This document shows, piece after piece, positions 1,067-23,519 of a stretch of DNA of 24,087 nucleotides (positions are counted from its first letter, which is position 1; each line of letters starts with the position of its first letter). The translations under genes were made by a program, and so were the position numbers. This DNA comes from a virus: IMG/VR virus record IMGVR_UViG_3300020202_001056, positions 1 to 24,087 of that record; one strand, 5' to 3'. The notes under the pieces were generated by a model. That model saw nothing but the letters and a program-made list of their open reading frames with translations. It was not told the origin of the DNA and did not search any database.

Positions 1067-1852
1067 TTAACCTAAATATTTGATATTTGCTTGACGACAA
1101 TACTCTTCAAAAGAGAAATCGTCCGAACAGAAAAAATCAATTCCGGGATTACGAATTGACTGTTTATCGTCGCCCATATTAAAAGCGGCGCGGGTAGAGT
1201 TAATTCTGAAGACTTGATAAGCCTTGAAATCTGCGCGGGCGTAATAATAAATTGAATGGATTGGTAGTAAAGGATAATTCTCTTTCCGCGCGAAATCAGC
1301 AACCAAATTTTTTAAAGTTTCATTGAAAGGTAATTTTTTATCCTGAATTTCTAACCAAACGGGAATATCTCCAAAATCGGGGATACAATTACCCATTTTA
1401 AAATTATTATTGTGAATGAACCCGCCGAAAAAGGGGATTGTAACGATAATATTTCGAGTGTAAAACTTTTTTAAGATATTCCAATCTAATCGGTTCTTGA
1501 TGGCATTGGAATAAAGTTTTATTAAATCGTTGCAACCGTCGGAATTTTCTGCCCATAAACTAACGTAGGATTCGGTGTTTTCTGTTTCTTTCGGGTCCCG
1601 CGCGGCGTCTTCACAGACGGTCATTTTTACACCCCAAACGAACTGATCAGCGACTTTGGGAGTGTTTTTGTAAGCGGATACGAAACCCGAATAGGTATTG
1701 TCTCGAATGAATATCTTTTTTAAGTTGTATTTTTTCGCGATCGAGAATATGGAATTGGGTCTGTTATGTTGAATTTCATCTGGTTCGTCCAGAGTTAATA
1801 TGCTCCGGCCGGAGCTGAAATGACTAGTAAAACAGGGGATTAATTCATCCAT
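1067..1852 (-). CDS. DNA polymerase III alpha PHP-domain-like protein, stand-alone
   Basis: I chose the ATG at 1850-1852 (261 residues, MDELIPCFTSHF). The longer frame to 1915 would need a TTG start and a 71-base overlap. An AAGGA lies just upstream, though very close to the ATG. The protein resembles the N-terminal PHP domain of DnaE: an opening FTSHFSSGRSILTL where DnaE has HxHSxYSLLDG, then IAKKYNLKKIFIRDNTYSGF where DnaE has ALTDHGNLFGA, then VWGVKMTVCE where DnaE has IGCEVY, then a LWAENSDGCNDLIKLYS segment. Most metal-binding His, Asp and Glu positions are replaced, so it is probably structural. Family assignment is from pattern memory, moderately sure. Confidence 0.65.
   Translation of the reverse strand: MDELIPCFTSHFSSGRSILTLDEPDEIQHNRPNSIFSIAKKYNLKKIFIRDNTYSGFVSAYKNTPKVADQFVWGVKMTVCEDAARDPKETENTESYVSLWAENSDGCNDLIKLYSNAIKNRLDWNILKKFYTRNIIVTIPFFGGFIHNNNFKMGNCIPDFGDIPVWLEIQDKKLPFNETLKNLVADFARKENYPLLPIHSIYYYARADFKAYQVFRINSTRAAFNMGDDKQSIRNPGIDFFCSDDFSFEEYCRQANIKYLG
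1802..1815. repeat. 14-base perfect palindrome
   Basis: GCTCCGGCCGGAGC lies inside the PHP-like gene, close to its start. It is GC-rich in an AT-rich region and differs from the CCGCGCGG word. It could be chance. Confidence 0.5.
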
Positions 1853-2114
1853 TTTCCTTATTTTCCACTGTTTTAGGATTAAGGCAATATAAATCGGTGA
1901 GATAAAAATCTTCAATTTCTACGTTCGTTGGTTCCAAACCCGCCCACCACCACTCGCCATTAATTTTATGTTTTTCCCACGGTTCGGTGCGTAAAATCTT
2001 TTTTTCTACTGATAAAATGTAATGAAAACTATCATCAATATAAATATCATCCGGCTCGGCGGGATGCATGGCTGCACAAAAAATTCTACCGTTTTTGCGA
2101 ATTCTGACCGCCAT
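1845..2114 (-). CDS. Small conserved phage-type protein of unknown function
   Basis: An 89-residue acidic, tryptophan-rich protein with no domain I can name. It opens MAVRIRKNGRIFCAAMHPAE, followed by DDIYIDD and FHYILSVE, and later has an EPWEKHKINGEWWWAG segment. Similar short proteins (basic start, HPAEPxDxYIDD, HYxLS, GEWWW) occur in phage replication regions as far as I recall, always without a function. It ends 8 bases inside the start of the PHP-domain gene, so the two are probably translated in a coupled way. Coding status is supported by ATG start, tight packing and this pattern. Confidence 0.65.
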   Translation of the reverse strand: MAVRIRKNGRIFCAAMHPAEPDDIYIDDSFHYILSVEKKILRTEPWEKHKINGEWWWAGLEPTNVEIEDFYLTDLYCLNPKTVENKENG

Positions 2115-2121
2115 AAAACTT

Positions 2122-2394
2122 CTATTTCTTTTCGGGAGGACTTTCCGGCGGGGGTATTTCCGGCGGCTTTTTTTTAATTTTCTTGTTTTTCTTTAAAAAG
2201 TTCTTATCATTGATATGGGCGTAAACGCTTTCAATTAACAAACCCATGATCTCAATTGATTCTTTATTTTCCAAACCAATAAAAATATCCGATTTATATT
2301 TGGTTTTTCCTTTTTGGAGTGTCAAAATTACGTAATCGACCTTCTCGTCTTCCAACTTTTCAGAAATATCCAAAATAAAATCCAGACTAGCCAT
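2122..2394 (-). CDS. Small hypothetical protein with Lys/Pro-rich tail
   Basis: A 90-residue protein I do not recognise. The first 65 residues look folded (MASLDFILDISEKLEDEKVD, then YVILTLQKGKTKY, then a helix IEIMGLLIESVYAHI). The last 25 residues are a low-complexity run of lysines and prolines ending in PPESPPEKK, probably disordered and possibly nucleic-acid or protein binding. The ATG lies 8 bases inside the end of the LAGLIDADG gene and the stop is TAG. The overlap suggests it is read from the same messenger. No membrane segment or signal peptide is visible. Confidence 0.6.
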   Translation of the reverse strand: MASLDFILDISEKLEDEKVDYVILTLQKGKTKYKSDIFIGLENKESIEIMGLLIESVYAHINDKNFLKKNKKIKKKPPEIPPPESPPEKK

Positions 2395-3304
2395 TAAGTC
2401 CCCCAGATTTTACGTTAATACGTCGCCCTAGTTTATCATACCCATTCTTCCTTTCTAAGTCAAGACTATAGTATTTATCTTTTTTTCGTGTTAAATGCCG
2501 CGTTGAATTTACGTAAAGGAAATCTTTAAAAATTTTTAGCGCATCCATTCTGAAGATTCTTAACAAAGAAATACCCGGTGAATGTTTAACATTACTTACT
2601 TTAATAGATTGTTGTTTAATGTTGGTGAGTTCAACTACTTTAGTTTTAATTCCATCGATCAAGTTTTTTGCGCCAACAATTGTAATGTATCCCCGTGTTG
2701 TTCCGGTCTCTTTACTCGCATTCGGATTAATATAAACACATCCGTTTCCATCAAAATACCCACGAATAAAATGCCGCACCAACGAATCGGAAACGATATC
2801 CGAATTTGGAAATGTTAATGTAAAAGATTTTCGGGGAATACATCCTAAATTAATTAAATCTTTACGAAGCTCCACACTAGATATTACGAAACGAATATAC
2901 GTCTCTATTTTTCCACCGTCCAAAATCTTTTCAAAAAACGTTGGAGAACCGGTATACCTAATATCTTCTTTAAATTTATTAATTAATTCAATATCTTGTA
3001 AGTTTAGACTAGTGCTAATACCTTGAGATGTGATGCCAAAATCCGCATACAAAAAACCCAACCAATAAGACTTTATATCATTATCTATTTTTTTAAAGAA
3101 ATTTATGTCAAAAGTAGTGTTTCTTAAGAAAGTTAATGCCCCTTTCTTAGTATCTATTCCCGCCCCCCTAAGAATTTCTAAGGTATTCCAATAAGAGATT
3201 TTATATCTTTGTTTTAGTTCCCGCGTCAGGACGCCGCTTTTATAATCTTCAACTAATTGCCGTTTTAGTTGAGCGTCAATTGTTTTTGTCAATATTCTTG
3301 CCAT
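2387..3304 (-). CDS. Free-standing LAGLIDADG homing endonuclease with N-terminal HTH
   Basis: A 305-residue protein with both LAGLIDADG helices in one chain. Motif 1 is at residues 80-91 (YWLGFLYADFGI, acidic residue D88) and motif 2 at about 178-190 (HFIRGYFDGNGCV, acidic residue D185). Both catalytic acids are kept, so it is probably an active single-chain DNA endonuclease that spreads its own gene. Residues 1-50 resemble a resolvase-type helix-turn-helix (LTRELKQRYKISYWNTLEIL), as in relatives that carry an extra DNA-binding domain. It sits after a 40-base AT-rich gap with no clear ribosome binding site and ends in TAG. The gene looks more AT-rich than its neighbours and has no CCGCGCGG word, fitting recent arrival. 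Confidence 0.85.
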   Translation of the reverse strand: MARILTKTIDAQLKRQLVEDYKSGVLTRELKQRYKISYWNTLEILRGAGIDTKKGALTFLRNTTFDINFFKKIDNDIKSYWLGFLYADFGITSQGISTSLNLQDIELINKFKEDIRYTGSPTFFEKILDGGKIETYIRFVISSVELRKDLINLGCIPRKSFTLTFPNSDIVSDSLVRHFIRGYFDGNGCVYINPNASKETGTTRGYITIVGAKNLIDGIKTKVVELTNIKQQSIKVSNVKHSPGISLLRIFRMDALKIFKDFLYVNSTRHLTRKKDKYYSLDLERKNGYDKLGRRINVKSGGLNG

Positions 3305-3344
3305 TTATATTATTATAACGGAATTAAAGATTTATGTAGCTTCT

Positions 3345-4130
3345 TTACTTCTGCCGCGCGGTTTTTATCCACGGTGAGAAAATCTTCTTCGGCGGTTTCA
3401 TCCCGTTTTTATAATACTCAAGTATTTTTATTATATCTTCTCGACAATAAGGAACCGAATGAATATCGATATCATTATGTCGGATATGTAATAATGTTAA
3501 ATTTTTTATCCAATATCCTTTTTCTTCTAGCATCCACGCGTAGAGGCTTAATTGTAAAGTATATTTATAAAATTGCGTAGAAAATTTATGGGACAGCGGC
3601 GGCAACATCCTATTTTTAAATATAGAATATTTTTCCAATGGCTTACCATTCGCCCAACCATTTGTCTTAAAGTCCCAGACGCCGATCGAATTATCATCTT
3701 CGAAGTATTCAACAACGTCCGTTGTTCCCGCTATTAAAAAATCTAGATTATAAAGCAATTGCTCCGAAAAGACTTTCCCCTTAAATTTAACTTTTTTCTT
3801 TAAAGCTTTAACTAATTTTTCATTATCATCTTTTAGAACTTTACCCGTTTCAATAAAATGTTCCGCCGATTTGTGAAAGGCGGTACCGAAAATACACGAA
3901 TCATCTTTTTTCTTATCCCATTCTTTCTTTAATTCTTCGGGCGGAATACCTCTTTCGGCGGCTTTCTTACGGAGAATCGAGCCGTCCGGATCAAATTTAG
4001 GTGAGAATAAAGAAATTAATTGAGAAACACTAATTAAATGTTGCCCATCTTTCGTTGTATATTTATGTTCAATGGGTTCAAAAGTGACATAATTATCATC
4101 TCCCATTAATTGTTTTTTAATAAAGTTCAT
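3345..4130 (-). CDS. PD-(D/E)XK nuclease, RecB/Cas4-like
   Basis: A 261-residue nuclease of the RecB/Cas4-like PD-(D/E)XK group, likely a DNA exonuclease in recombination, replication or host DNA breakdown. Visible motifs: H86 in GTAFHKSAEHF (motif I), D138 in IAGTTDVVEYF (motif II), D153-F-K155 in GVWDFKTN (motif III), and Q193-x3-Y197 in TLQLSLYAWML (motif IV). The order and spacing match the family well. No four-cysteine iron-sulfur cluster is seen, unlike true Cas4 or AddB. The start ATG overlaps the stop of the DUF2493 gene as ATGA. The C-terminus ends WIKTARQK, the last residues being encoded over one CCGCGCGG word. Confidence 0.8.
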   Translation of the reverse strand: MNFIKKQLMGDDNYVTFEPIEHKYTTKDGQHLISVSQLISLFSPKFDPDGSILRKKAAERGIPPEELKKEWDKKKDDSCIFGTAFHKSAEHFIETGKVLKDDNEKLVKALKKKVKFKGKVFSEQLLYNLDFLIAGTTDVVEYFEDDNSIGVWDFKTNGWANGKPLEKYSIFKNRMLPPLSHKFSTQFYKYTLQLSLYAWMLEEKGYWIKNLTLLHIRHNDIDIHSVPYCREDIIKILEYYKNGMKPPKKIFSPWIKTARQK

Positions 4131-4510
4131 TTCACAAAATCGTAAACGTGGACTTTTTTACCTAATCGTTTCGCTCTTTCGATTACATCCGTTGTGCCTT
4201 TACTCATATTAACACGCCATGCTACTAAAATATCGCAGTCTTTTGCTACTAATTCGTTCCTTCTAAACCCCGCGCCTTTGTCGGTGGAACCATCTTCCCT
4301 TCTCCACCGGGCGTAATGCGTGATTAAAGAAATACCTTTTTTTTCGCAAAACTCTCGCGCGAATTCGTCAGGTCCTTGTTTACATCCGCCGGATACAATC
4401 ATCTCGATTTTATCTTTGTTTTTATCTAACCATTGAAAAACGGCGATTCTATCCGTATACTCTCGGCTCCCGACGATAGCCACACGGTATTTTTTTTGTG
4501 GTTTTTCCAT
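4127..4510 (-). CDS. DUF2493 (YspA-type SLOG) nucleotide-binding protein
   Basis: A 127-residue single-domain Rossmann-like protein of the DUF2493/SLOG group. Visible signatures in order: VAIVGSREYTD (residues 10-20), MIVSGGCKQGPDEFARE (glycine-rich loop), GAGFRRNELV, and DILVAWRVNMSKGTTDVIE with KKVHVYDF at the end. SLOG proteins bind or process nucleotides or nucleotide-derived signals such as ADP-ribose; the function of phage copies is not established. It lies between a RecB-like nuclease (ATGA overlap) and a zinc-finger-like protein (5-base gap). Family assignment is firm; role unknown. Confidence 0.85.
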   Translation of the reverse strand: MEKPQKKYRVAIVGSREYTDRIAVFQWLDKNKDKIEMIVSGGCKQGPDEFAREFCEKKGISLITHYARWRREDGSTDKGAGFRRNELVAKDCDILVAWRVNMSKGTTDVIERAKRLGKKVHVYDFVK

Positions 4511-4515
4511 TTTAA

Positions 4516-5100: not shown

Positions 5101-5178
5101 ATTTTATCCTTTCTTTCATTAATAATTCATAATTTGGATTTATCTCTATTTTTAAATTATTAAAAATTGTAGAGTTTG
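5101..5178 (-). other. AT-rich gap of 78 bases, leader of the zinc-ribbon gene
   Basis: The longest gap in the window. Read on the minus strand it is almost all A and T, with the AAAGGAT ribosome binding site near its end and no GC-rich hairpin. It could hold a phage promoter, but no sigma-70 pair of boxes is convincing. Confidence 0.35.
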
Positions 5179-5382
5179 TTATGATCCATTTAAAACATCC
5201 ATCTTAACTCTTTTTACTATTTCATCAACATTAAAACCCTGTCGGGCGTAACTAATTGCAATTTTTAAAATACCAGAATATGGTATCCGCGCGGATTTAC
5301 TTATCTCAAAAAGACCTTCTCCAAGTCGATCGGGATCATCGATGTTTAAAGTTTTATTAAAAAAGAATTTAGATTGATCCAT
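5179..5382 (-). CDS. Small hypothetical protein
   Basis: A 67-residue protein without a recognisable domain. The central segment RIPYSGILKIAISYARQGFN followed by VDEIVKRVK looks helical, perhaps a small helix-turn-helix or protein-binding bundle. It starts 14 bases inside the end of the cupin gene, in another frame, and an AGGAAGAC-like purine stretch precedes the ATG. A CCGCGCGG word (5287-5294) encodes part of the SAR tripeptide. Coding status is supported by packing and the ATG; function unknown. Confidence 0.5.
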   Translation of the reverse strand: MDQSKFFFNKTLNIDDPDRLGEGLFEISKSARIPYSGILKIAISYARQGFNVDEIVKRVKMDVLNGS

Positions 5383-5761
5383 CGACTATTTGTCTTCCGT
5401 TCGTTAATGTAATTTCTTTATCTCCGATTTGTTCTTTCCAAGTTTTTGACCAAGGTCCACGCAATGTAAAAACCCATGTTGTTCCATGAGAAAATACTTG
5501 GTGGAAAGTTTCTCTTTTGGTAATTATCGGAAAAATAGAAGGCGTATAGTATTGCGTTTCGGCTCCGTTAAGATGGCGCTCTTCTAATTTTCCCTTTAGA
5601 ACCCAAGAGATACAATTGAAGGCATGATTATGAAATGCTTCACGGGTCCCGGGATCAAAACGTAGTAATGCAATAGTGAATAAAGATTTAATCTCAATCA
5701 ACCAATATCCCCAAACGTGGGATTCCGCGCCGCCGTCTTTCGATTTAGATAGTATTTTCAT
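5369..5761 (-). CDS. Cupin-fold protein
   Basis: A 130-residue single-domain beta-barrel protein when started at the ATG at 5759-5761. A longer frame to 5776 would need TTG and a larger overlap with the primase. Cupin motif 1 is seen as PGTREAFHNHAFN (H44 and H46) followed by ISWVLKGKLEERH. Motif 2 is weaker (ETFHQVFSHGTTWVF), with a His in the expected strand. The usual metal-binding Glu of motif 1 is not obvious, so metal binding may be altered. Cupins range from sugar epimerases to dioxygenases and binding proteins. Its place downstream of the primase suggests a metabolic or DNA-linked role, but this is not shown. Confidence 0.65.
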   Translation of the reverse strand: MKILSKSKDGGAESHVWGYWLIEIKSLFTIALLRFDPGTREAFHNHAFNCISWVLKGKLEERHLNGAETQYYTPSIFPIITKRETFHQVFSHGTTWVFTLRGPWSKTWKEQIGDKEITLTNGRQIVDGSI

Positions 5762-6674
5762 ATCCGTATTGTTCAATCACTAAATTTTTATCAATATTTA
5801 AAAGCTCGTTCACATCTTTGCCGCCGCGCGGAAGGCGAATTTCAACCTGATCAGGATCAAAATAGTTTAAAAGTTTATCTTTAATCTTTTCGGCCGCGAC
5901 TAAACCAACATTTGTCTCTTTGTTCTCATCGTTATTTAACGCTAAAATTATTTTATTAACATTTAGTTTAATAATCGTTTTGAGTAGATGAGTTCCAATT
6001 TCCACCCCGAATAAACAAACAACATCTTCGATTCCGCAGGAAAAAAACGAAAGAACGTCCGAGATTCCTTCGGTTAAAATAATCCGCCGGGTTTTCTGGA
6101 TTGTTTTATAGTTAAGAAATAATGGATAGGCGAAATATTCCATCTTTGGTCCGATAATGATCCACTTGGGTTGCTGATCATCCTTTAATGCTCGCCCCGC
6201 CCAACCGATGATTTTCTGAGAACTATTAAAGATTGGAAAAACATAACGATAACCTAACTTCCCTTTTTCGTAAGTAACGCCGCCCCGAAATCTTTTTAAT
6301 ACATCAACATCAATCCCGCGCTTTTCCCAATACGAATAATCCTCTCCTAATTTTTTTAATAATTCGGGCGGATATATCCGCGCGGTTTTAATTTGAGGTT
6401 TCTGAACGGGTGTGGATAACTGGATATTTTTGTTTTTAAGCCATTCTTCAAGCTTTTCCTCAGAATTAAGATTGAGGGTAAGTTTAATTAATTTAGAAAG
6501 GGGTCCTCCGTCACAAGCAACAAAATCGTAATAACTAGCAGTATCACTATAAATCGCAATTGAACCAACCTTATCGCCGGAACGATAAACCGCGCGGCTA
6601 ACGATATGATTTCCGACCCTCTTTAATGGATAACCTAATTCTTCAAGAATAGATAAATAAGAATTCTCTTCCAT
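5745..6674 (-). CDS. DnaG-like primase (TOPRIM) without zinc ligands
   Basis: A 309-residue primase-like protein, shorter than bacterial DnaG. Visible: a core segment YRYVFPIFNSSQKIIGWAGR (residues 143-161) like the DnaG RNA-polymerase domain; TOPRIM motif LTEGISDVLSF (E202, G203); LALNNDENKETN (D249), where many phage primases have NNDE rather than DxD; and PRGGKDVNELL near 282-292. The N-terminal 65 residues align in layout with a CHC2 zinc domain (ending FVACDGGPLSKLI), but the Cys/His ligands are absent. It likely makes RNA primers with the DnaB helicase, whose stop lies 2 bases upstream. No C-terminal helicase-interaction domain is visible. Confidence 0.85.
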   Translation of the reverse strand: MEENSYLSILEELGYPLKRVGNHIVSRAVYRSGDKVGSIAIYSDTASYYDFVACDGGPLSKLIKLTLNLNSEEKLEEWLKNKNIQLSTPVQKPQIKTARIYPPELLKKLGEDYSYWEKRGIDVDVLKRFRGGVTYEKGKLGYRYVFPIFNSSQKIIGWAGRALKDDQQPKWIIIGPKMEYFAYPLFLNYKTIQKTRRIILTEGISDVLSFFSCGIEDVVCLFGVEIGTHLLKTIIKLNVNKIILALNNDENKETNVGLVAAEKIKDKLLNYFDPDQVEIRLPRGGKDVNELLNIDKNLVIEQYGYENTI

Positions 6675-6676
6675 TT

Positions 6677-8155
6677 TTACAATCCCTCTTCGGTGGTTGG
6701 ATTGGACACGTTTGGTTTTTGTTGTAAAAACTTAATAATATCCGCATACGTTCCATGTTCAGTTATTTTAAAGTTATTTACATCATAATTAATAAAATTG
6801 GGAAGATATTTTATTTGTTTCCCGTCTCTTACCCTTACTAACTCGTTAATCCCGCTTTCGCATTTTCCATAAGTCCGAAAGACTAATGGTTTTAAGAGGT
6901 TGCGCCCGAATTTTGTTCCCCAAGATGTAATTTCTTCTGGAGTCTTTTTTCTGAACAGAAATAAACCTTGAGTAAACCAACTAATTCGATCCGATATAGC
7001 AACACTCGATTCATTATCTAACTTGTTGATACCTAAATCGTTACGATTCTGTTGACATGCGGCGAATATTGGTATATCCAATTGATTTCCTAAATCATTA
7101 AACCGACAAACCGAATCGCCAATCGCTTGAAACTCCGCCCAATTTTTTGTTACTTCTGAAATCTTGAGATAATCATATATTACGAAACATTTATTGCCCC
7201 GGCCGACAAATTTATAATACCATCGTTTGATCAAAGAAATAACTTCGGGAACAGGCATCAACCCAACGTATTTATGGAAGATTTTACCTTTTAAGTAATC
7301 GTATTTATCCAATTCTTTCTCAACTTTATCCCTGTATTCAGCCATTTGTTTCCATTGTCCATTTTCGATATATGGCAAAGGACATTGGGTAATCGCGGAG
7401 ATCGCTCGGTTTTTAATGAGCATCGGTCTCATTTCCGTATCGATAATTAAAGACGGACAATCGTTTTGAATTGAGATGCCTTGTGCCATATTTAAAAGCC
7501 ACGAGCTTTTTCCGCTTTTTGCGCGAGCCGCAACAACATAAATTCCATCTCCCGCGCGGACGCCCCCTGTTAGATCATCAAACAAAGTCAAACCGGTCTG
7601 ATATCCAACCATTGAAACGGGATTCTCGGCGGCTTTCTGAGCTACTTCTTTTAAATCACCATACAAATCAACCGGATCATCATCATTTAAATTTATGATT
7701 TCGATCTTTTTATTATGTATGCCGTCAACCCCAGTTACTATTTCACTAATCTCTTTACTTCTATTTTTAAAGATAAACTCCTTAACACGATCGGCGTTCT
7801 CCGTAAGTTCGCGACAAACCGCGAGTTTTTTAAGTTCAGCAAAACAATCAATAACCCCTTCTTTACTGATAGCGGTAAATGCAATTGAACTTAAATAATC
7901 TGCGAGATTTAAATCTCCGAATTGGATTAAACCCAAATTAACTAACTTCTGAGCTAAAACCACCGAGTCAATTAATTCTTTCTTATAAAGAGATTGTTTT
8001 AAAACGGCATAAATTTGCCGATGTTGATCATTAAAAAAATCGGTGGTGTTTATTCGAAGATCGATTTCGGGGAAAACTTCGGGATATTTAAGAAGACCAC
8101 CGATACAATTTTTTTCAATATCAAGCGATGCTAATTCTGATTGCTTTCTAATCAT
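6677..8155 (-). CDS. dnaB: Replicative DNA helicase, DnaB family
   Basis: A 492-residue hexameric 5'-3' helicase. The N-terminal domain begins with EKNCIGGLLKYPEVF and DFFNDQHRQIYAVLKQ, as in DnaB. A linker leads to the RecA-fold motor: TGLTLFDDLTGGVRAGD, Walker A as ARAKSGKS (residues 210-217), Walker B in CFVIYDYLKI, sensor segment IFAACQQNR, and an arginine-finger region SDRISWFTQGLFLF. Length and motif order match the family. It overlaps the SpoU gene by ATGA and lies 2 bases before the primase, forming a helicase-primase pair. A CCGCGCGG word at 7552-7559 encodes VRAGD in the conserved loop before Walker A. Confidence 0.93.
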   Translation of the reverse strand: MIRKQSELASLDIEKNCIGGLLKYPEVFPEIDLRINTTDFFNDQHRQIYAVLKQSLYKKELIDSVVLAQKLVNLGLIQFGDLNLADYLSSIAFTAISKEGVIDCFAELKKLAVCRELTENADRVKEFIFKNRSKEISEIVTGVDGIHNKKIEIINLNDDDPVDLYGDLKEVAQKAAENPVSMVGYQTGLTLFDDLTGGVRAGDGIYVVAARAKSGKSSWLLNMAQGISIQNDCPSLIIDTEMRPMLIKNRAISAITQCPLPYIENGQWKQMAEYRDKVEKELDKYDYLKGKIFHKYVGLMPVPEVISLIKRWYYKFVGRGNKCFVIYDYLKISEVTKNWAEFQAIGDSVCRFNDLGNQLDIPIFAACQQNRNDLGINKLDNESSVAISDRISWFTQGLFLFRKKTPEEITSWGTKFGRNLLKPLVFRTYGKCESGINELVRVRDGKQIKYLPNFINYDVNNFKITEHGTYADIIKFLQQKPNVSNPTTEEGL

Positions 8156-8730: not shown

Positions 8731-9211
8731 TGTCTTTTAAATGAAGTTGATTAATTAAAATATTATAACAATCCGCGCGGAATCTCCAACCGTAATCGCT
8801 CATAGGATCAATCTCACCCTTCTTTCTAAATTTAGCTAATTTAAAGAATTCTTCCTTCTTTATCCATCCTAATAGCCAGCCGCACGAAAAATCTTCCATG
8901 ATCCGAGTAAAAAAATAGAAATCGCACTTTTGTTCGGTATTATAATCCGGCACGTTGCAGTAGTAATCCGGGCGGGGAGCGGTTCTGATTATCTTGGTTT
9001 TTACGTCTACTGTAAAGCCTTTATTTGTAATTAGATCGTAGTCGTAGGTGTTCTTTAATTCGCCGCCGAATTCTCGTTGAACTAGAAGTTCGCCCAAAAA
9101 ACCATAAACATTGCCTTCTCCTTTTTTAATCGAGTTACGAAGCGCCCCTAATTCTTCGGCAAGTCTTTCCGCGCGGATGATAAATGTTTTGGGGATTTTA
9201 ACTTCAATCAT
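8714..9211 (-). CDS. PD-(D/E)XK endonuclease-like protein
   Basis: Started at the ATG at 9209-9211 (165 residues, MIEVKIPKTFIIRAERLAEE), which overlaps the release-factor-like gene by 8 bases; a longer frame to 9271 would overlap much more. The core looks like a restriction-type fold: GFLGELLVQREFGG (E41), then YDYDLITNKGFTVDVKTK with D59, D69 and K71, the D-x-K end of the motif. Similar short proteins in phages and bacteria are annotated as restriction-endonuclease-like. Its cut specificity is unknown. It may act in host DNA breakdown or recombination. A CCGCGCGG word is present near each end of the gene (8773-8780, 9169-9176). Confidence 0.7.
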   Translation of the reverse strand: MIEVKIPKTFIIRAERLAEELGALRNSIKKGEGNVYGFLGELLVQREFGGELKNTYDYDLITNKGFTVDVKTKIIRTAPRPDYYCNVPDYNTEQKCDFYFFTRIMEDFSCGWLLGWIKKEEFFKLAKFRKKGEIDPMSDYGWRFRADCYNILINQLHLKDNANKS

Positions 9212-9584
9212 TATCTGTAAATTTAAAATTCGCCGAAACTTCCATCCATTTCCCGTCTTGCTGAATTTCAATTTTAAGATTTTCGGGTGACAATTCTTTA
9301 TCTAGCGATTCTTCAATCGTCTGCTGATTTTTGATTTCAAATTTCTTTTTAGCTAACCAAAACTTGAATTTAGGTGTTTCGATTAAACGAAGAAAGGCGT
9401 TCTTTTTATTCTCGGACTGAGAGCGACTATCAGAAGCACGTCCAATTGCGCCGGAATTAAAATGGATTAACTGAACACCACTTGCCACTTTATTCCGCGC
9501 TTGCCCGCCCGGTCCCGATCCGCAATAATAAGAAATATCGAAATCTTTAGCGGAACAAATATTAATTTTTTGTTTTTCTGACAT
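9204..9584 (-). CDS. Release-factor-like peptidyl-tRNA hydrolase domain protein (GGQ)
   Basis: A 126-residue protein made only of the class I release factor catalytic domain. The GGQ motif is at residues 26-28 (GSGPGGQARNKVASGV), followed by the usual downstream features SRSQSENKKNAFLRL. It lacks domains that read stop codons, like the rescue factors ArfB and PrfH, but also lacks the long basic tail by which ArfB senses an empty mRNA channel. It probably frees peptides from stalled or damaged ribosomes. It starts 2 bases after the nuclease gene ends and overlaps the next nuclease by 8 bases. The family is certain; whether it rescues host or phage translation is inference. Confidence 0.87.
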   Translation of the reverse strand: MSEKQKINICSAKDFDISYYCGSGPGGQARNKVASGVQLIHFNSGAIGRASDSRSQSENKKNAFLRLIETPKFKFWLAKKKFEIKNQQTIEESLDKELSPENLKIEIQQDGKWMEVSANFKFTDND

Positions 9585-9586
9585 TC

Positions 9587-10000: not shown

Positions 10001-11148
10001 GCGTTAATCAATACCGCGCGGAATTTATTAAAAAGGAATTCAACGATTTTCGGATTTTCTTCTAAATAACTCCTAAAATTATCCATTCCCTGATGACGAT
10101 GGTCAAATTCTTCCCCGATTTTTTCTTTTACTTCTTTAACCAAGTCCGCTGATACTTCGATCCATGAGCCGTTCTTTTTAGCTAATTCCCAAGCTAAAAG
10201 CTGATCGACAACCTCATATTCTACCCAAACGGCTGATTTACCTTTAACCCCATGTTTCACCGGGTATTGAACCGTAATGTAATTCTTCTCGTTAGCTGAT
10301 TTTTTAATCTGTATTTTACAATGATGCCCCAAAACTTTTGTTTTCCCATCGTTTATTTTTCCGGTAGCACTACTTAGAATTAAATCACTTTGATAGAATT
10401 TATTAAATTCCAAAATCCAGTTAGCATAATGAGAAAGCGCGAAACCTCCCGAATAAGACCCGTCTCGCGGCGGAGTTTTTGCATAAGGATCAATTTTAAC
10501 TTCGGCTGTAACTTGACTAATTAAAATACCCATATGACCTTTAACGTTCATCTCAAGACTGAAATCGGTTAAAAATCGTTTGGAGATTGCCGGTGCCCCC
10601 GCCACTTTTGCCGCTTCATCATACGCTTTTCCTTCGTCTGCTTTAATTTTTAATCCGTCCATCGAATCTACAATATAACAAAACAATGTTTTTGTAGGAT
10701 TATTGCGGATTAAAGTAGAGATATATTTCGCGATAATCTCATATTTCTGACAATTAATAACAAGAACCGTTCCGTCCGCCCATTGACTTGGGTCTTTAGT
10801 ATAAACCATACCGGTTCTCTCCATATTCTCTTTTGAGAAACGACCCTCCGCGCGGATATACAATCCTTTCGCTTTTCGCCCGTGCTCCGCGTGATAACGT
10901 AGAAAATTAGCTTGAACTTCCAAAGATGAAGGCGTTTTACCACTATTCATGTGTCCACAAAAACGATGAAAACCCGGACCAAGCCCCCCGCCCAACTCTA
11001 CATCGAGATTTAAACTACCAGTGGAAATCTTATAATCAATCTCTTCTTCTTTATTAAGATGATCATCCGCTGTTTCATCTAAAAGTTCAGACATCAATTC
11101 TTCAGGGGTAATGCCCGCTTCTTTAACTTCTTCCTTCTTTTTTGCCAT
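9997..11148 (-). CDS. RecA/UvsX-like recombinase
   Basis: A 383-residue strand-exchange ATPase started at MAKKKEEV (ATG 11146-11148). An in-frame ATG at 11163 is equally open but has no spaced ribosome binding site; AGGA overlapping that ATG could serve the inner one. Walker A is GHMNSGKT (residues 65-72) after the GSLNLDVELGGGLGPG loop; Walker B is in CYIVDSMDGL; the stretch GILISQVTAEVKID with GGFALSHYANWILEF matches the RecA L2 region and following strand. The acidic C-terminal third is divergent, as in phage UvsX. It likely coats single-stranded DNA for recombination and repair. First gene of the replication part when read in the transcription direction. Confidence 0.88.
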   Translation of the reverse strand: MAKKKEEVKEAGITPEELMSELLDETADDHLNKEEEIDYKISTGSLNLDVELGGGLGPGFHRFCGHMNSGKTPSSLEVQANFLRYHAEHGRKAKGLYIRAEGRFSKENMERTGMVYTKDPSQWADGTVLVINCQKYEIIAKYISTLIRNNPTKTLFCYIVDSMDGLKIKADEGKAYDEAAKVAGAPAISKRFLTDFSLEMNVKGHMGILISQVTAEVKIDPYAKTPPRDGSYSGGFALSHYANWILEFNKFYQSDLILSSATGKINDGKTKVLGHHCKIQIKKSANEKNYITVQYPVKHGVKGKSAVWVEYEVVDQLLAWELAKKNGSWIEVSADLVKEVKEKIGEEFDHRHQGMDNFRSYLEENPKIVEFLFNKFRAVLINA

Positions 11149-11163
11149 AAATTCAAAATTCAT

Positions 11164-11483: not shown

Positions 11484-12499
11484 TTGTTTAATTCGGAATT
11501 TATTAATTTTTTTACCAATCCCCGAAAATCCGTTTTGGGAGACCAGCCTAATTCTTTTTTAATTTTTGACGCATCTGCTCGGAGGTAATCTTTTTCCGCG
11601 CGGAAAAATTCGACGGAGACCTCTATAATTTTGTCTTTTTCGAAAGGAGGAATAAAAGCAAATTCATTTAACCCTAATCCGCGCCATTCAAGGGCTAATC
11701 CGGCGCAAAAACAAGCGTATTCGACAAAATCCCGAACGGTGGCTGGTTCATCCGTGCTGATTAAATAATCGACCGGTTTTCCGTGGTTTAGCATCAACCA
11801 ACAAGCTTCTACGAAATCGTCTGTATCGCCCCATGAACGAATGGCATCCAAATTACCCAGCTTAATCGGAGAAATTGGCTTTCCTTCTTTATAATTTTTG
11901 AGTATATTAACTATTCCCTTTGTTACTTTATTTGTGAGAAAGTTAACTCCCCGTTGAGAAGATTCGTTATTTCCCAAAATCGCGTTGACGGCAAACAGAT
12001 TGTATTTTTCCCGATATATTTTAATTAAGTCATGAGCGGCGTTTTTTGAACCACCGTAAATATTCGCGGGCGCGGGTTTCGAATCTTCGTTGATCGGCCG
12101 CGCGGAATTTTCAAATTGTAAAATACTACCACTTTGAAGAAATCGACAATTAAGTTTATTTTTAACAATAGATTCAAGACAACGCATGACTCCCAAAACA
12201 TTTGTGTCAAATACCTTTACCGGACTTTCCCATGCGGGCTGAACGGACGTGTAACCAGCGTAATTAATAAAGTAATCCGGTTGAACCTGCTTTACGATAT
12301 CATTAATACTAATATCGTCCGAAATATCTCCATAAATTACTTTAAATCTTGGATTATCAATAAAATTTTGGATCGGAGTTAAATCGATTTGGGATTTCCT
12401 TCGAGTTAATCCAAATATCGAATGATGGGTGTTCTTAATTAAATAAGAAATTAGCGCCGATCCCATATTCCCCAAGCATCCTGTGATTAAAATATTCAA
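11480..12499 (-). CDS. GDP-mannose 4,6-dehydratase-like SDR protein
   Basis: A 339-residue extended SDR enzyme, starting with TTG (12497-12499). The Rossmann loop TGCLGNMGS begins at residue 6, so no earlier start is possible, and a strong AGGGAG lies 5 bases upstream. It follows the Gmd pattern: IFGLTRRKSQIDL, YGDISD, GNLDAIRSWGDTDDFVEACW, and a C-terminal FFRAEKDYLRADASKIKKEL. Y148 and K152 of the catalytic YxxxK are kept. The SxSE stretch of Gmd (catalytic Glu) reads SGSILQF here, so the Glu seems lost and dehydration may not occur; epimerisation or a changed reaction is possible. Acts on a nucleotide sugar, probably in surface glycan synthesis. Confidence 0.8.
   Translation of the reverse strand: MNILITGCLGNMGSALISYLIKNTHHSIFGLTRRKSQIDLTPIQNFIDNPRFKVIYGDISDDISINDIVKQVQPDYFINYAGYTSVQPAWESPVKVFDTNVLGVMRCLESIVKNKLNCRFLQSGSILQFENSARPINEDSKPAPANIYGGSKNAAHDLIKIYREKYNLFAVNAILGNNESSQRGVNFLTNKVTKGIVNILKNYKEGKPISPIKLGNLDAIRSWGDTDDFVEACWLMLNHGKPVDYLISTDEPATVRDFVEYACFCAGLALEWRGLGLNEFAFIPPFEKDKIIEVSVEFFRAEKDYLRADASKIKKELGWSPKTDFRGLVKKLINSELNK
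11591..11608. repeat. 18-base perfect palindrome around CCGCGCGG
   Basis: TTTTTCCGCGCGGAAAAA is its own reverse complement. It lies in the 3' part of the Gmd-like gene, where it encodes the FFRAEK peptide. It is the longest symmetrical copy of the dispersed word. Confidence 0.8.
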
Positions 12500-13053
12500 T
12501 TTATCTCCCTAAGTGGTATTTTTGGATCGAAAATTGTCATCCAAAGTCTTTCAATAATACCAGAGTAATGATCTTGAAGTTCGTTGGTTAAAAAATCATA
12601 AGAATAAAGTAATTTTTTGTAAAAGTCATGGGGTCGATATTGAATAGCCGCGCGGGATGCAACGAATTGTTCACCCGCCGAAAACTTCACGATAGCATCG
12701 TCACCAATAAAAAGTGTATCGTAAAATTTTTTTACTTCGTTTACGTTAGGTTCTTCGGCGATTGAGCCGAGCGGACAATAATCAAAACCTTTACAAACAG
12801 CCAATCTTTGATATAAATCGGAACAATGTGGAAATGGATCACCCTGTATAAAAGCAGTATGTTCCGCCATGTAATTATAATTTCGAACAATATGTTGAAG
12901 ATAAGAATACGCCTCCCTACCTTTTTCGGGGATAGGTATAGCGTTACGAATATAATCTCCTTTATTGTAAATCACGTAATCATAAATACATTCAGATGTT
13001 TGTAACCATGAAACATCTTCTCTAAAGCGAGCTAAAACAAGTTGAAGTTTCAT
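12496..13053 (-). CDS. DUF3431 protein, probable glycan-cluster enzyme
   Basis: A 185-residue protein with the DUF3431 outline: an opening strand LVLARFREDVSWL, then VIYNKGD, then a GREAYSYLQHIVRNYNYMAE segment, then HTAFIQGDPFPH. Members occur near glycosyltransferases in bacteria and eukaryotes and are thought to be glycosyltransferase-like, but no reaction is established. Histidines near the FIQGDPFPH motif might bind a metal; this is inference. The ATG overlaps the transaldolase stop (TAATG), and the stop overlaps the TTG of the next gene. A CCGCGCGG word encodes SRAA at 12648-12655. Confidence 0.75.
   Translation of the reverse strand: MKLQLVLARFREDVSWLQTSECIYDYVIYNKGDYIRNAIPIPEKGREAYSYLQHIVRNYNYMAEHTAFIQGDPFPHCSDLYQRLAVCKGFDYCPLGSIAEEPNVNEVKKFYDTLFIGDDAIVKFSAGEQFVASRAAIQYRPHDFYKKLLYSYDFLTNELQDHYSGIIERLWMTIFDPKIPLREIN
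12505..12510 (-). promoter_or_regulatory. Ribosome binding site that fixes a TTG start
   Basis: AGGGAG on the minus strand, 5 bases before the TTG of the Gmd-like gene. It lies inside the end of the DUF3431 gene and supports the unusual start. Confidence 0.7.
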
Positions 13054-13828: not shown

Positions 13829-14197
13829 TTACGAAGTTTTAAGTAGTTTATCAACATCGTTTTTGATTTGTTTCCAATTTTCCGCGCGGATGGCTTTATC
13901 GTCGATTATGACATCGGCGTTTGGTTTACCGAAGTAAAGTTTATCAATAGGGATGTTGTATTTATCTAACCAATTTAAAATAAGACGAGATTGTTTAACG
14001 ATAATTTCACCTATATCATTATTGCAAGTTTTCATGTGCCGCGCGGTGTAAATGGAAATAGTATGTCCCTCTTTTTTCCATCTTTGTATTTGTTCTACCG
14101 CGCCGGGAAGTGGTTTTACGTCTTCGTATGACTCATCATTTTGTTTGTTCGCGCAAACGGTATTATCCAAGTCCAAAAGTATATTAAGTTTTTCCAT
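13829..14197 (-). CDS. HAD-superfamily phosphatase, capsule-biosynthesis type
   Basis: Started at ATG 14195-14197 (122 residues, MEKLNILLDLDNTVC); the longer frame to 14242 would overlap the nucleotidyltransferase by 59 bases. HAD motif I is DLDNT (nucleophile D9, acid D11), motif II is the T in SIYTARHMKT, motif III is K in LYFGKPNADV, and motif IV is VIIDDKAIR. No cap domain is present. Similar small HAD proteins occur in capsule and lipopolysaccharide loci, where they remove a phosphate from a sugar-phosphate. Here it overlaps the nucleotidyltransferase by 14 bases and is followed by the transaldolase. The substrate is not readable. Confidence 0.85.
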   Translation of the reverse strand: MEKLNILLDLDNTVCANKQNDESYEDVKPLPGAVEQIQRWKKEGHTISIYTARHMKTCNNDIGEIIVKQSRLILNWLDKYNIPIDKLYFGKPNADVIIDDKAIRAENWKQIKNDVDKLLKTS

Positions 14198-16366: not shown

Positions 16367-17283
16367 AATACTTCGTTTAATGTCTTTATGCCGGTCGCAT
16401 ACATTACCTTCTGACGATCCAAAGAATCATAATGGCGGGCAATCATTCCTATCCAAATTAATCCTTCTACTAATTTAATTAAATTAATATCTACTTTAAA
16501 CGTATCGGTAAATATCTTATCTAAATTCGCCGGGTGATCCGTTTTAAAAGCAAAAACAATCAAATCTTCCCCACTTCGAACATCAAAATTATCTGTAATG
16601 ATATCTTCATAACGATTAGCATAAGAATGTCTTAACTTTGCATAATCGTAAATTGGGTCTCCATAGTTTCCTTGAACACCGAATCTCCCGCGCGGATCGA
16701 TAAATCGGTAAAAAGTTTTATCTGTTACTTTTACTGAAGAACTCAAAATATTACTAAAGCAAAAATCTCCATGAATAATCGTAAAAGGAGCGTTTGTGAA
16801 GAGCTTCGTTTGAATTAATTGCTTAATATCTTCCCAAATTACCTTAAAGTTTTTATAGATAAACCCATTAATATGAATTTCAGATTTTTCACTAATTACT
16901 TTAAAAAATTCATTAGACTCGATTAGTTTATTATATTCATTAATTGTTTTATCAATATACATTTCCCGTCGATAAACATCGAGTAAATCAAACGCATGGA
17001 TAGTTCGTCCTTGGAAAAGTGCTAATGTTTCAGCTAAAGACTTAAATAAACAGGGATAATCAATCTCACATTGACCCAGATTGGGGTAACCATAATATTC
17101 TATATCATAGGAGTAGGGCGGCCGCGCGGTTTGACATCCATAAAAGCGCGGAAAATAAGGTTTTAACTCCCAAGGAAGATTTTGATAATAACGAATCTCA
17201 TCTAACAATCGTTCGTTTTCGCTTGTTTTGGTTGCGACGCCTTGATTATTAATAGTGATTGTATTATATGCCCGAGTTACCAT
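16357..17283 (-). CDS. Phosphotransferase of aminoglycoside/choline kinase fold
   Basis: A 308-residue kinase-like protein. The catalytic loop is clear: FTIIHGDFCFSNIL with H171, G172, D173 and N178, then a metal-binding D196 in FIDPRGRFG, as in APH and choline kinases. The N-terminal lobe is less conserved and the nucleotide-binding glycine loop is not obvious. A later GDPIYDYAKLRHSY segment is typical of capsule-associated members. In this setting it probably phosphorylates a sugar, amino alcohol or polyol used in the glycan pathway. It ends in TAG and overlaps RibB by 20 bases, which suggests coupled expression. A CCGCGCGG word encodes DPRGR. Confidence 0.8.
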   Translation of the reverse strand: MVTRAYNTITINNQGVATKTSENERLLDEIRYYQNLPWELKPYFPRFYGCQTARPPYSYDIEYYGYPNLGQCEIDYPCLFKSLAETLALFQGRTIHAFDLLDVYRREMYIDKTINEYNKLIESNEFFKVISEKSEIHINGFIYKNFKVIWEDIKQLIQTKLFTNAPFTIIHGDFCFSNILSSSVKVTDKTFYRFIDPRGRFGVQGNYGDPIYDYAKLRHSYANRYEDIITDNFDVRSGEDLIVFAFKTDHPANLDKIFTDTFKVDINLIKLVEGLIWIGMIARHYDSLDRQKVMYATGIKTLNEVLCG

Positions 17284-18820: not shown

Positions 18821-19194
18821 ATTTTTGTTTTTGTTTCGGTTAACCCCGCGCGGAAATATTTTTCTTGAATCTTTTGTTTAGCTTTGAATCTTTTTATATT
18901 TAAATCGTCTAATTCTTTCGCGGTAACTTCATTATCTCCATTACGAAGTTGTTCAATTTTTATGAACAATTCCGCGTTTGCTTCGTATAATTCGTTATAT
19001 TCATCGCTTAGAACAATATCATCAAAATTACCAATTTGGTTACTTAAATAATTGGTGCATTCTTCTCTATTTATAGAATTTTGAGGGGTGGGATAAAAAA
19101 TATCCTTTACTTTAAGGATCGAGAGATAATCGAGCGCGTAGGCTCCATCAACAATTAGTTTTACTTTTGCCGGTTTTTTGAACCAATTAAACAT
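18817..19194 (-). CDS. Small hypothetical protein with coiled-coil C-terminus
   Basis: A 125-residue protein I cannot assign. The first third is MFNWFKKPAKVKLIVDGAY followed by a LDYLSILKVKDIFYPTP stretch; the last half is charged and helical (ELYEANAELFIKIEQLRNG, then KELDDLNIKRFKAKQKIQEK), a probable coiled coil. The end reads YFRAGLTETKTKI, with a CCGCGCGG word at 18846-18853. It lies between the GT2-like gene and a methyltransferase and overlaps both, so it may be a scaffold or partner of the glycan enzymes. Function unknown. Confidence 0.55.
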   Translation of the reverse strand: MFNWFKKPAKVKLIVDGAYALDYLSILKVKDIFYPTPQNSINREECTNYLSNQIGNFDDIVLSDEYNELYEANAELFIKIEQLRNGDNEVTAKELDDLNIKRFKAKQKIQEKYFRAGLTETKTKI

Positions 19195-19774: not shown

Positions 19775-19779
19775 ATAAT

Positions 19780-20604
19780 TTAATTTAAAATTTTTATTTT
19801 TACTCCCCGATGATGAGGTCTTTGTCCATGAGCTACTTTAGTAAGGTTTTTACGACATAGCCCAAAATGTTTTGCAAAATGATATAAGTTTTTTATTTGC
19901 ATAACAAGTCCATTAGAAAATTTAACTTCAAAGGTCCGTTCATTTCCCGTCTGGATTTTCTTATCCTTAAACGTATTAATTAATATTTGACTTGGAATAT
20001 AAATATTTTTTCTATTTTTAGATAAATTAATTTTACCTTGTTTAACTCGTTCTTCGTAAAACGATTCTGGTTTATCGGCGTGATAACATTTCCATCCTTT
20101 ATAAGATAGAATTTCCCCGCGAGCGATTTTCATCATTTCACAATCACTTAACTCATTTTCATTACAAAACTTTTTTAAATTAAGAATTTTAGATCGAACG
20201 TTTTCAGGTGAAACAACTATCCACTCCTTCGATGACCGAATCGCCATTTTTTCTTTTTCTTCTTCGCTTCGAGATGTGTAGATATAATAAACATTATTTG
20301 TAGTATTATATTGAGGTTTTAAAAGATTTATAAATTCTTGTTCTAAACATCGATATAATCCTATATGACACGTTTTTCGATCTAAAATATAGAAGGGTAA
20401 AAATGCAAAGTTTTCAGCTCCGTATTTATTCCATGAATTTTGTAAATATTGACTATGGTGAATACCTTTCTCTAAGCTACGTTTATGTTCTGATTTTCGC
20501 TTATAAAACGGCGCAATAGTAGAACCAATATAAAAATGAAAATTTACCTTATTAAAAATAAGATAAACTCCGGTGTCATGGATATTTTTACCAATAAATC
20601 GCAT
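19780..20604 (-). CDS. GIY-YIG homing endonuclease
   Basis: A 274-residue endonuclease. The N-terminal catalytic module is clear: TGVYLIFNKVNFHFYIGST (residues 11-29), then R36 in FYKRKSEHKR, and the catalytic glutamate probably at 88 or 90 in RCLEQEFINLL. The C-terminal half holds modular DNA-binding parts of the type found in intron endonucleases (NLYHFAKHFGLCRKNLTKVA, then HHRGVKI). The domain order matches phage homing endonucleases. Composition is lower in GC than most neighbours in the lines I counted, and no CCGCGCGG word is present. It is inserted between two methyltransferase genes, sharing TAATG with the upstream one. Confidence 0.87.
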   Translation of the reverse strand: MRFIGKNIHDTGVYLIFNKVNFHFYIGSTIAPFYKRKSEHKRSLEKGIHHSQYLQNSWNKYGAENFAFLPFYILDRKTCHIGLYRCLEQEFINLLKPQYNTTNNVYYIYTSRSEEEKEKMAIRSSKEWIVVSPENVRSKILNLKKFCNENELSDCEMMKIARGEILSYKGWKCYHADKPESFYEERVKQGKINLSKNRKNIYIPSQILINTFKDKKIQTGNERTFEVKFSNGLVMQIKNLYHFAKHFGLCRKNLTKVAHGQRPHHRGVKIKILN

Positions 20605-21266: not shown

Positions 21267-21818
21267 CTACAAGATAGAATGTAAATAAACAACTTCTTTA
21301 TTTATATCTTTTCCGTAAAGAGCTACCTCATGGCCATAACCGTGCCATTTATAAAGTTTAAAATAAGGATATTTTTGACGTAAAAGAACTCCTTTTGTAG
21401 AAAAATCATCACAAAGAATATAATCCGCGCGGGCCGCTTCGTATTCATCTAGCATATCTTGGGGGTTGTCGGAACCATCCAATAGAATAAGGTCTTTATT
21501 CGTTGGATTCGCTTTTAAATAACTTAAGCCACTACCAAGATAATAATTAATACCTTGAAAATAATCACCTAAAAGTTCCTTACAGATAGTTAAAGCGTTG
21601 GGATCGATATCGCAAACGGTTAGAGACCTGCCGAAACTTTTAACGTATTCCGCGAAAAAGAAAGTGCTAAAGCCGTCGCCAGCACGACCATTCCGATCAC
21701 GAGTCGCGCCGATCTCAAGGATATTAATTGGTTTTTGATTAAATAAAGAAAGAACTTCGTTAAAAATTATATCTCTATTACCTTTACCTTCTTTAAATTG
21801 TTGATAAGCATTACTCAT
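21267..21818 (-). CDS. Methyltransferase-like protein B
   Basis: A 183-residue class I methyltransferase. SAM loop ILEIGATRDRNGRAGDG (residues 33-49), acidic strand VCDIDPNA (68-75), and DLILLDGSDN at about 109-117, then DYILCDDFS. The middle is short and has no extra domain. It overlaps the glycosyltransferase gene by 8 bases and is followed by a 36-base gap. A CCGCGCGG word at 21425-21432 encodes ARAD. With the other methyltransferases in this cluster it suggests a heavily methylated glycan. Confidence 0.72.
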   Translation of the reverse strand: MSNAYQQFKEGKGNRDIIFNEVLSLFNQKPINILEIGATRDRNGRAGDGFSTFFFAEYVKSFGRSLTVCDIDPNALTICKELLGDYFQGINYYLGSGLSYLKANPTNKDLILLDGSDNPQDMLDEYEAARADYILCDDFSTKGVLLRQKYPYFKLYKWHGYGHEVALYGKDINKEVVYLHSIL

Positions 21819-22617
21819 AATATTTAATATAAAAATCGTATATCTTTCTTAACTCTGGATCGGCGGTTAAATCGCTACAATATCGGGCTTGATGCCAACC
21901 AATTTGTCTAAAAAGTTCGTCCCGAGTTACTAAATGAGCGCCGCCGGTTGCATGGTCTCGGGGATAAGTTCCATCTTCGGTTATAATCTTTTCTTTAAAA
22001 GAAAGTTTCCGTTGAATCGATTTTTCATCTAAGGGAGAAAAACCTAACCACATATGATATAAACCGGGGATGCGCAACGCATTTCTCATGCTACTCGTAT
22101 GTCGCCCCGCGCCAACATATTCCCCTTTCGAACGTCTATGTAGTAATCTCTCACTCCCGCGCGGATTCTTCATCCCTTTACTTCCAAAACATCGTTGTAA
22201 AACATAGGGAAAATTAGGGTCTAATTCCGCGCCGATTAATTCCGGCCGGTCAACCATTGTGATTGGCGCAAAAAAAAGACCGTTTACATTATTATTCACC
22301 GGTCTACTTATATCAGCAACCAAACCATTAAAATCAATACAAAAGATAAATTCGCTAATATTCAGAGTGATCTTCCAACCTTCGGTTTTCGCTTCGTAAT
22401 AGAATACCTCTTCGTCAATAGCAAAGCCATGAAAGTATTTATTTCTAGATGGAACGATTTCCCAAGTAGGTGTTAATTCTTTAATAATTGCGCGGGACCG
22501 ATCGGTCGAAGCGTAATCAATCAAGATTCCATGATCGAACATCCCCCGATGATGTTTCAACCAAAAAGGTAGTAAATATTCTTCGTTATAAAAATGAGAA
22601 ATTACGGTCTTTTTCAT
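21811..22617 (-). CDS. Glycosyltransferase-like protein, GT2/GT92 type
   Basis: A 268-residue protein. The start is diagnostic: VISHFYNEEYLLPFWLKHHR (residues 5-24), then FDHGILIDYASTDRS (27-41), as in glycosyltransferases of the GT2/GT92 kind that act on surface glycans. FIFCIDFNGLVADIS is a probable metal site in which DxD is replaced by DFN. Later FGSKGMKNPRGSERLL and GLYHMWLGFS form conserved blocks. It starts in TAATG overlap with the epimerase. A CCGCGCGG word encodes NPRGSE. Confidence 0.78.
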   Translation of the reverse strand: MKKTVISHFYNEEYLLPFWLKHHRGMFDHGILIDYASTDRSRAIIKELTPTWEIVPSRNKYFHGFAIDEEVFYYEAKTEGWKITLNISEFIFCIDFNGLVADISRPVNNNVNGLFFAPITMVDRPELIGAELDPNFPYVLQRCFGSKGMKNPRGSERLLHRRSKGEYVGAGRHTSSMRNALRIPGLYHMWLGFSPLDEKSIQRKLSFKEKIITEDGTYPRDHATGGAHLVTRDELFRQIGWHQARYCSDLTADPELRKIYDFYIKYYE

Positions 22618-23519
22618 TAATTCCGCACTGACCTTTTTGCGAGATGGTAATTTTGTTGGATTTGATCAATAATACTTATTGTATCGTCTTTAAAGGTAAA
22701 AGTAAATTCTTTTTCAAATTTTTTCGAATCAATACTAAAGTTGTAGGCGGTTGATACAAGTTTTGAAGTCGTTTGATGATTCGGTTGTTCTAACTTAATC
22801 GGACAATTTAGCTTTTTTGAAAATTCTTTAGCAATTTCTTCTGATGTGGAATTAAACGATGCGAGATTGTAAATTCCCCTTGTTTTATCTTGAACTAAAA
22901 TAGTTTCAACCGCGCGGCATAAATCTGTTAAACCTAAAATCGGGCGGTTAATTTCGGGGTTAAAAAGTTTAATATGTTTATTTATTTTATAAGATTCAAA
23001 CATCGCGTTGATCATTACGTCTACCCGTAAATTTGGTGAAAAACCACAAACCGTTCCAAAACGTAATCCAAAATAATTAATATCAGTTAAACTAACATAA
23101 TTGTCGATCATGTTTTTACTCAGATCATAAAAATTATGTGGAATATAGGTTCGATAATCTTCAGTAACAAATTTTTTTCGTGTATTACCGTATACACTCG
23201 AACTAGATGCGTAAATAAACTTTTGTTTCTTATTTAATTTAGAAAGTAACTCAACAAAATTACAAACATTATTTTTAAAACTTTCGTAACCCCTTGATTC
23301 GCAAGATTTAACGCTTGAATTACCAGCAAGTAAAATAATAGCGTCAAATTTCTCCAATAGACTTTTTTCAAGTTGATTAAAGTTGATCCGGTAATTATTT
23401 GAATTTACTACATTACCATAAAGGTCTAAATCAACGGTTTCGACTGTAAATTTCCTTGTTAAATGAAGAAAAAGGGCGCTACCGATATATCCGGTTCCGC
23501 CGATAATTAAAATTTTCAT
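22617..23519 (-). CDS. NAD-dependent epimerase/reductase (extended SDR)
   Basis: A 300-residue extended SDR. NAD loop IIGGTGYIGSALF begins at residue 5; acidic strand VDLDLYG (29-35); catalytic serines in YASSSSVYG (103-111); Y131 and K135 in NFYDLSKNMID; later LRFGTVCG and a NRPILGLTDLCRAVE segment, as in UDP-glucose epimerases and related reductases. It probably epimerises or reduces a 4-keto nucleotide sugar. It follows the C-methyltransferase by ATGA overlap, in line with branched deoxysugar synthesis. Confidence 0.85.
   Translation of the reverse strand: MKILIIGGTGYIGSALFLHLTRKFTVETVDLDLYGNVVNSNNYRINFNQLEKSLLEKFDAIILLAGNSSVKSCESRGYESFKNNVCNFVELLSKLNKKQKFIYASSSSVYGNTRKKFVTEDYRTYIPHNFYDLSKNMIDNYVSLTDINYFGLRFGTVCGFSPNLRVDVMINAMFESYKINKHIKLFNPEINRPILGLTDLCRAVETILVQDKTRGIYNLASFNSTSEEIAKEFSKKLNCPIKLEQPNHQTTSKLVSTAYNFSIDSKKFEKEFTFTFKDDTISIIDQIQQNYHLAKRSVRN

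Follow-up and report, generated by a model that had tools for sequence, protein, structure and literature searches.

A grossly over-represented palindromic octamer in an AT-rich phage lineage and its resemblance to the highly iterated palindromes of cyanobacteria

Highly iterated palindromes (HIPs) are known from cyanobacteria, where they occur at densities of about 500–2500 per million (PMC4390886). HIP1 (GCGATCGC) is a GC-rich palindromic octamer found about once per kilobase, dispersed over the genes in all reading frames and with sharply defined limits, and the alternate HIPs (GGGATCCC, TCGATCGA, GGCGCC, rCCGGy and GCsGC) are GC-rich words of sporadic, lineage-specific distribution, each present where a methyltransferase able to methylate it is present (PMC4390886). 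In the model proposed for their accumulation, methylated G-C steps direct repair so that the sequence ratchets toward the word, with saturation at about one copy per 1000 nt (PMC4390886). This account (Elhai 2015) is restricted to cyanobacteria and the word 'phage' is absent from its text. The stretch of DNA considered here, termed the window, is the entire virus record IMGVR_UViG_3300020202_001056 of IMG/VR (24,087 bases), probably a fragment rather than a complete genome, and it carries a palindromic octamer, CCGCGCGG, which shares the properties of HIP1 listed above. It is nonetheless another word than HIP1 and is not among the alternate cyanobacterial HIPs, its carrier is a phage rather than a bacterial chromosome, and it has no proven methyltransferase. 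The literature searched yielded no paper that treats CCGCGCGG as a repeated word or describes HIPs in phages. The kind of pattern is familiar, the word is new and so, apparently, is the type of carrier.

Exactly 22 copies of CCGCGCGG lie between positions 1598 and 22917 of the window, which has a GC content of 35.3%, making it the top-ranked 8-mer of any kind; the runner-up among palindromes, TTAATTAA, occurs 11 times. A recount agreed in every figure with the original prediction, which had also given 29 CGCGCG hexamers, 22 of them bearing both the C and the G flank, and a division among reading frames of 12 RA, 7 AR and 3 PRG. That prediction had named Markov and codon-preserving nulls as the comparisons able to overturn it. 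Markov models of orders 1 to 4 anticipate 0.16, 0.73, 1.7 and 3.4 copies, all far below 22, and those of higher order anticipate 15 and 20, values near the observed count because the 6- and 7-mers concerned fall almost wholly inside CCGCGCGG and have already absorbed it. A synonymous-codon shuffle in which proteins and codon usage were held fixed gave a mean of 0.48 copies and a maximum of 3 in 1,000 trials, and the corresponding z of about 31 is the largest deviation among all palindromes of 4, 6 and 8 bases (shuffle expectation 0.5). The low-order and codon-preserving nulls thus leave the excess standing, and it is real, strong and lineage-specific. An origin in codon or amino-acid preference, low-order composition or chance could appeal to the higher-order Markov values, but those estimates contain the word itself; the shuffles, the use of three frames, and the 24 one-mismatch neighbours, which together amount to 17 occurrences against 22 for CCGCGCGG alone, reduce the probability of such an origin almost to nothing, and the synonymous shuffle had already refuted it.

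The effect of the word on the encoded proteins is instructive. As had been predicted, conservation of peptides is insufficient as a cause: the dipeptides RA and AR are themselves inflated, numbering 31 and 29 in the window against 16.7 and 16.6 in shuffled proteins, nearly a doubling, and return to near expectation once the pairs bearing the word are set aside. Residues encoded by the word show 27% identity to distant relatives compared with 36% for other R and A residues (P 0.19). At 10848 the window reads IRAEGR against KAEGR in three of four relatives, with R in place of K, and at 11596 it reads FFRAE against FYRPAE in three relatives. Because RA and AR are inflated and the word-coded residues are no better conserved than others, the driver acts on the DNA, with the word shaping the proteins and not the reverse; protein conservation as the cause is ruled out by the shuffle, the dipeptide excess and the alignments of relatives.

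The unit of repetition is the octamer, with sharp edges. Copies are spaced 157–2649 bases apart (mean 1,015), slightly more evenly than at random (P 0.06), and a mild preference for T/A exists just outside them. One-base deviants fall at the outer two positions of each half in 12 of 17 cases in the window and 15 of 19 in the sister contig described below, the sites being partly shared, where about half would be expected, a weak excess. Beyond the octamer, neither alternating hexamer is in excess, with 7 CGCGCG for 6.6 expected and 3 GCGCGC for 4.0, so the Z-DNA-prone element that had been listed among the possible readings is disfavoured and was rejected. A dispersed octamer also recalls chi, and the phage encodes a UvsX-like recombinase and an exonuclease, which might suit selection in the phage for a chi-like hotspot of recombination or repair, or for a mark used in packaging. 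Both chi and packaging marks, however, are asymmetric and orientation-biased, whereas CCGCGCGG is its own complement, and this explanation is regarded as improbable.

The word is not confined to the window, a limit that would have undone the original prediction. A sister contig of the same lineage, G001 (IMGVR_UViG_3300021057_000260; 19,562 bases), is 98–99% identical to the window in its main aligned blocks, with some segments replaced, and carries 16 copies, two of which lie in the 6 kb beyond the window end. Thirteen of the 14 window sites comparable in G001 are intact, the exception being that at 12648. The resulting densities, 913 per million in the window and 818 per million in G001, or about 0.9 per kb, lie within the range of cyanobacterial HIPs and close to the saturation level of the repair model, and the excess over an order-2 Markov model is 25–30 fold in both. 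The two contigs agree in what would be a whole-genome property, each being only part of a phage genome. The HIP1 word proper, GCGATCGC, has 0 copies in the window and in G001.

Among more distant relatives the word is all but absent. In the stretches examined of 68 more distant relatives, whose polymerases are mostly 34–50% identical (one at 22%, and one relative found through its primase), CCGCGCGG occurs in 0 or 1 copy each, and none has a palindrome of its own comparable to it, the next best being TATTAATA with 22 copies against 6.5. Inheritance from a wider phage clade is thereby ruled out; with dense copies missing from all 68, the trait is lineage-specific, and its most likely origin is on the branch that gave rise to the lineage of the window and G001. 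No cultured phage close to the window was found. A scan of 2.9 million viral contigs with a pattern of two CCGCGCGG words separated by an AT run, suited to AT-rich carriers and with a simulated power of about 30% per 40-kb contig, returned G001 as the sole dense carrier, together with two contigs holding a local cluster; a scan with a fixed AT-context pattern returned 18 viral contigs, none with dense CCGCGCGG. In the two clustered contigs (about 51% GC), 8 copies plus partial copies occupy about 320 bases (L039:5999-6320 and L042:1484-1805), adjoining a large reading frame at 6342-7811 that appears helicase- or primase-like by eye. By its arrangement this cluster resembles an iteron or operator array, and seems of another nature than the genome-wide word.

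An origin- or operator-like cluster of this kind is one of the observations that might favour a different explanation, in which a dimeric protein dedicated to the purpose, encoded by phage or host, binds CCGCGCGG; selection would then maintain a copy about every kilobase, whether for compaction or segregation of the genome, for silencing or anti-silencing, or as dispersed repressor sites. The exact, sharp-edged octamer, its palindromic symmetry, the slightly even spacing and the mild T/A preference outside it would all suit such a protein. No candidate protein was identified, and residues altered at many places in 24 kb would be a heavy load for binding sites to impose. Dispersed phage sites such as the stoperators of L5 are asymmetric and oriented, which also counts against this explanation, and it is considered unlikely.

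A candidate for a modifying enzyme is encoded by the sister contig. The segment of G001 corresponding to window positions 5112..5197 spans about 826 bases and holds a gene for a DNA methyltransferase of the N4/N6 type (L011:7788-8582), which itself bears one copy of CCGCGCGG (L011:8410). The protein matches Pfam N6_N4_Mtase (PF01555; E 3.2e-31) and carries TSPPY at residue 28 and DPFAG at 197, the motif order of the beta class; its PDB matches include the PvuII N4-cytosine methyltransferase. It is expected from these features to be of the N4-cytosine type, and by sequence it belongs with the phage beta-class N4-cytosine DNA methyltransferases (phrog_67, PF01555), to which the PvuII enzyme is a structural relative, although the gene is absent from the window at that place. 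The word consists of G and C only, with cytosine as the only base methylated in the known bacterial ways, so the type of enzyme fits, and on the strength of this predicted gene the modification target listed in the original prediction is a plausible reading of CCGCGCGG. No close relative was found in viral contigs when the enzyme was used as bait. A neighbour of the methyltransferase place, the SLOG-like gene at 4127-4510 of the window, is swapped for a diverged version in G001.

Certain other short words are scarce in the window in a manner like restriction avoidance: RGATCY is absent (0 of about 18 expected; YGATCR 34 against 26), GTAC occurs 4 times of 37 expected, CCGCGG 0 of 3, and GGCC 10 of 37, with 8 of those 10 lying inside CGGCCG, itself enriched (8 against 3). 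The pattern of G001 is like that of the window, and the distant relatives vary among themselves.

A host was sought by scanning 84,980 species genomes with the same two-word AT pattern, which gave 116 loci. A simulated AT-rich host of 2 Mb at the density of the phage yields 8–16 matches, whereas the best genome, Selenomonadales bin.121, gave 5 loci; an AT-rich host at phage density is therefore probably not among the genomes scanned. The only genome matched repeatedly, that of an uncultured Selenomonadales bacterium (G025; CAMKFB01 contigs, L231-L235), contains 1451 copies of CCGCGCGG in 2.4 Mb against 201 of the reversed word, and one further member of the same family (G171; L236-L240) stands out clearly with 934 against 221; in the majority of the other family members tested the count is close to the reversed-word control. 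In both genomes CCGCGCGG lies mostly within TCCGCGCGGA. They are 55–56% GC with a 6–7 fold excess over order 2, compared with 30 fold at 35% GC in the phage, and they share with the phage the avoidance of RGATCY, GGCC and CCGCGG, though not its GTAC and CGGCCG patterns; avoidance of RGATCY or GGCC alone is common, each being seen in 24 of the 116 scanned loci. Similarity of RibB, tried as a pointer to the host, does not single out the enriched family members, and methyltransferase homologues do not follow the word within the family. These two genomes show that CCGCGCGG can pervade a bacterial genome; as hosts they are candidates at most.

It is against this background that passive copying has to be judged, namely that the phage takes on the word bias of its host by shared mutation or replication bias, with no function or methylation of the word in the phage. 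The absence of the word from distant relatives, as would follow a host switch, and its genome-wide presence in at least two bacteria that share the avoidance of RGATCY, GGCC and CCGCGG speak for it. A 30-fold excess acquired passively would, however, need an equally strong bias in the host, and no such AT-rich genome was found; the bacterial excess is only 6–7 fold, in genomes of much higher GC content and with other GTAC and CGGCCG patterns. The host-bias copy named in the original prediction was thus not demonstrated among the 84,980 genomes, and is held to be doubtful.

The likeness to HIP1, another of the readings offered there, fits best, in density, scatter, exact octamer unit and GC-rich palindromic composition. 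The explanation preferred here, though it falls a little short of being probable, is that CCGCGCGG, a true HIP spread over the genome of a single phage lineage, owes its origin or its maintenance to a process linked to cytosine methylation that is either shared with the host or borne by the phage. Preference is given to it for the density and scatter of the copies, their composition (two G-C steps per strand), the sporadic distribution of the word and the weak excess of outer-position deviants. Cytosine methylation of CCGCGCGG, or of a sub-word such as CGCG or GCGC, by a host or phage enzyme would bias mismatch repair at the methylated sites, and the word would accumulate to about one per kilobase. 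The G001 methyltransferase would be responsible, or else an enzyme of the host with similar specificity, and the host would presumably share the word. Several points weigh against this: the window has no methyltransferase gene at the G001 position and keeps its sites nonetheless, though it is a fragment; phages commonly carry such methyltransferases; the best homologues of the enzyme in the enriched Selenomonadales genomes are 26–32% identical and not unique to them, with no close relative of the G001 protein; the host scan found no AT-rich genome dense in CCGCGCGG; and the repair model is itself a hypothesis.

A bolder version of the HIP explanation, and a rather unlikely one, has the virus write and keep CCGCGCGG as a self-mark with its own N4-cytosine methyltransferase and its replication and repair set, the word being an epigenetic label that biased repair, and not selection at each site, has spread. 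Were it true, it would give viruses their first known HIP system, judging by the literature searched, and would make the methylation-repair model testable in a small genome. The origin of HIP words is a question for which a small phage genome with so strong a HIP is a favourable case: the gain can be dated by comparison, as the word is missing from all more distant relatives found and alters residues that they keep; a candidate methyltransferase is encoded by the sister contig; and long reads would show methylation directly. The word may mark an undiscovered modification system, and it could help to trace the host, whose genome may abound in CCGCGCGG and be depleted of RGATCY, GTAC and GGCC.

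The positions of the copies are collected in Table 1. All genes of the window are on the minus strand and 98% of it is coding, so the location of every copy within a gene is uninformative.

Table 1. Copies of CCGCGCGG in the window, with the residues they encode, the genes that hold them and their comparison with sister contig G001
Copy	Position	Residues	Gene	In G001
1	1598..1605	AR	DNA polymerase N-terminal-like gene 1067-1915	intact
2	3354..3361	AR	exonuclease gene 3345-4130	compared
3	5287..5294	AR	small gene 5179-5382	compared
4	5824..5831	PRG	primase gene 5745-6674	compared
5	6378..6385	AR	primase gene 5745-6674	compared
6	6590..6597	RA	primase gene 5745-6674	compared
7	7552..7559	RA	DnaB-like helicase gene 6677-8155	compared
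8	8773..8780	RA	gene 8714-9271	compared
9	9169..9176	RA	gene 8714-9271	compared
10	10014..10021	RA	UvsX-like recombinase gene 9997-11163	compared
11	10848..10855	RA	UvsX-like gene 9997-11163	compared
12	11596..11603	RA	GDP-mannose dehydratase-like gene 11480-12499	compared
13	12098..12105	AR	GDP-mannose dehydratase-like gene 11480-12499	compared
14	12648..12655	RA	DUF3431 gene 12496-13053	CCGCGCGA
15	13882..13889	RA	gene 13829-14242	
16	14039..14046	AR	gene 13829-14242	
17	16688..16695	PRG	gene 16357-17283	
18	17122..17129	AR	gene 16357-17283	
19	18846..18853	RA	gene 18817-19194	
20	21425..21432	RA	methyltransferase-like gene 21267-21818 (weak Pfam match)	
21	22157..22164	PRG	glycosyltransferase gene 21811-22617	
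22	22910..22917	RA	epimerase gene 22617-23519	

Four homing-endonuclease-like genes (149-433, 2387-3304, 9587-10000 and 19780-20604) hold 0 copies where about 2.2 would be expected, numbers too small for significance; they might lack the word as young invaders would. The window otherwise encodes parts of a DNA polymerase, the exonuclease, a primase, a DnaB-like helicase and the UvsX-like recombinase, and a cluster of sugar and glycosyl genes that includes a transaldolase-like protein and a DHBP synthase of the RibB type (17264-17869). A SpoU-type RNA methylase (8152-8730) and a protein with an RF-1 domain (GGQ; 9204-9584) are unusual cargo for a phage.

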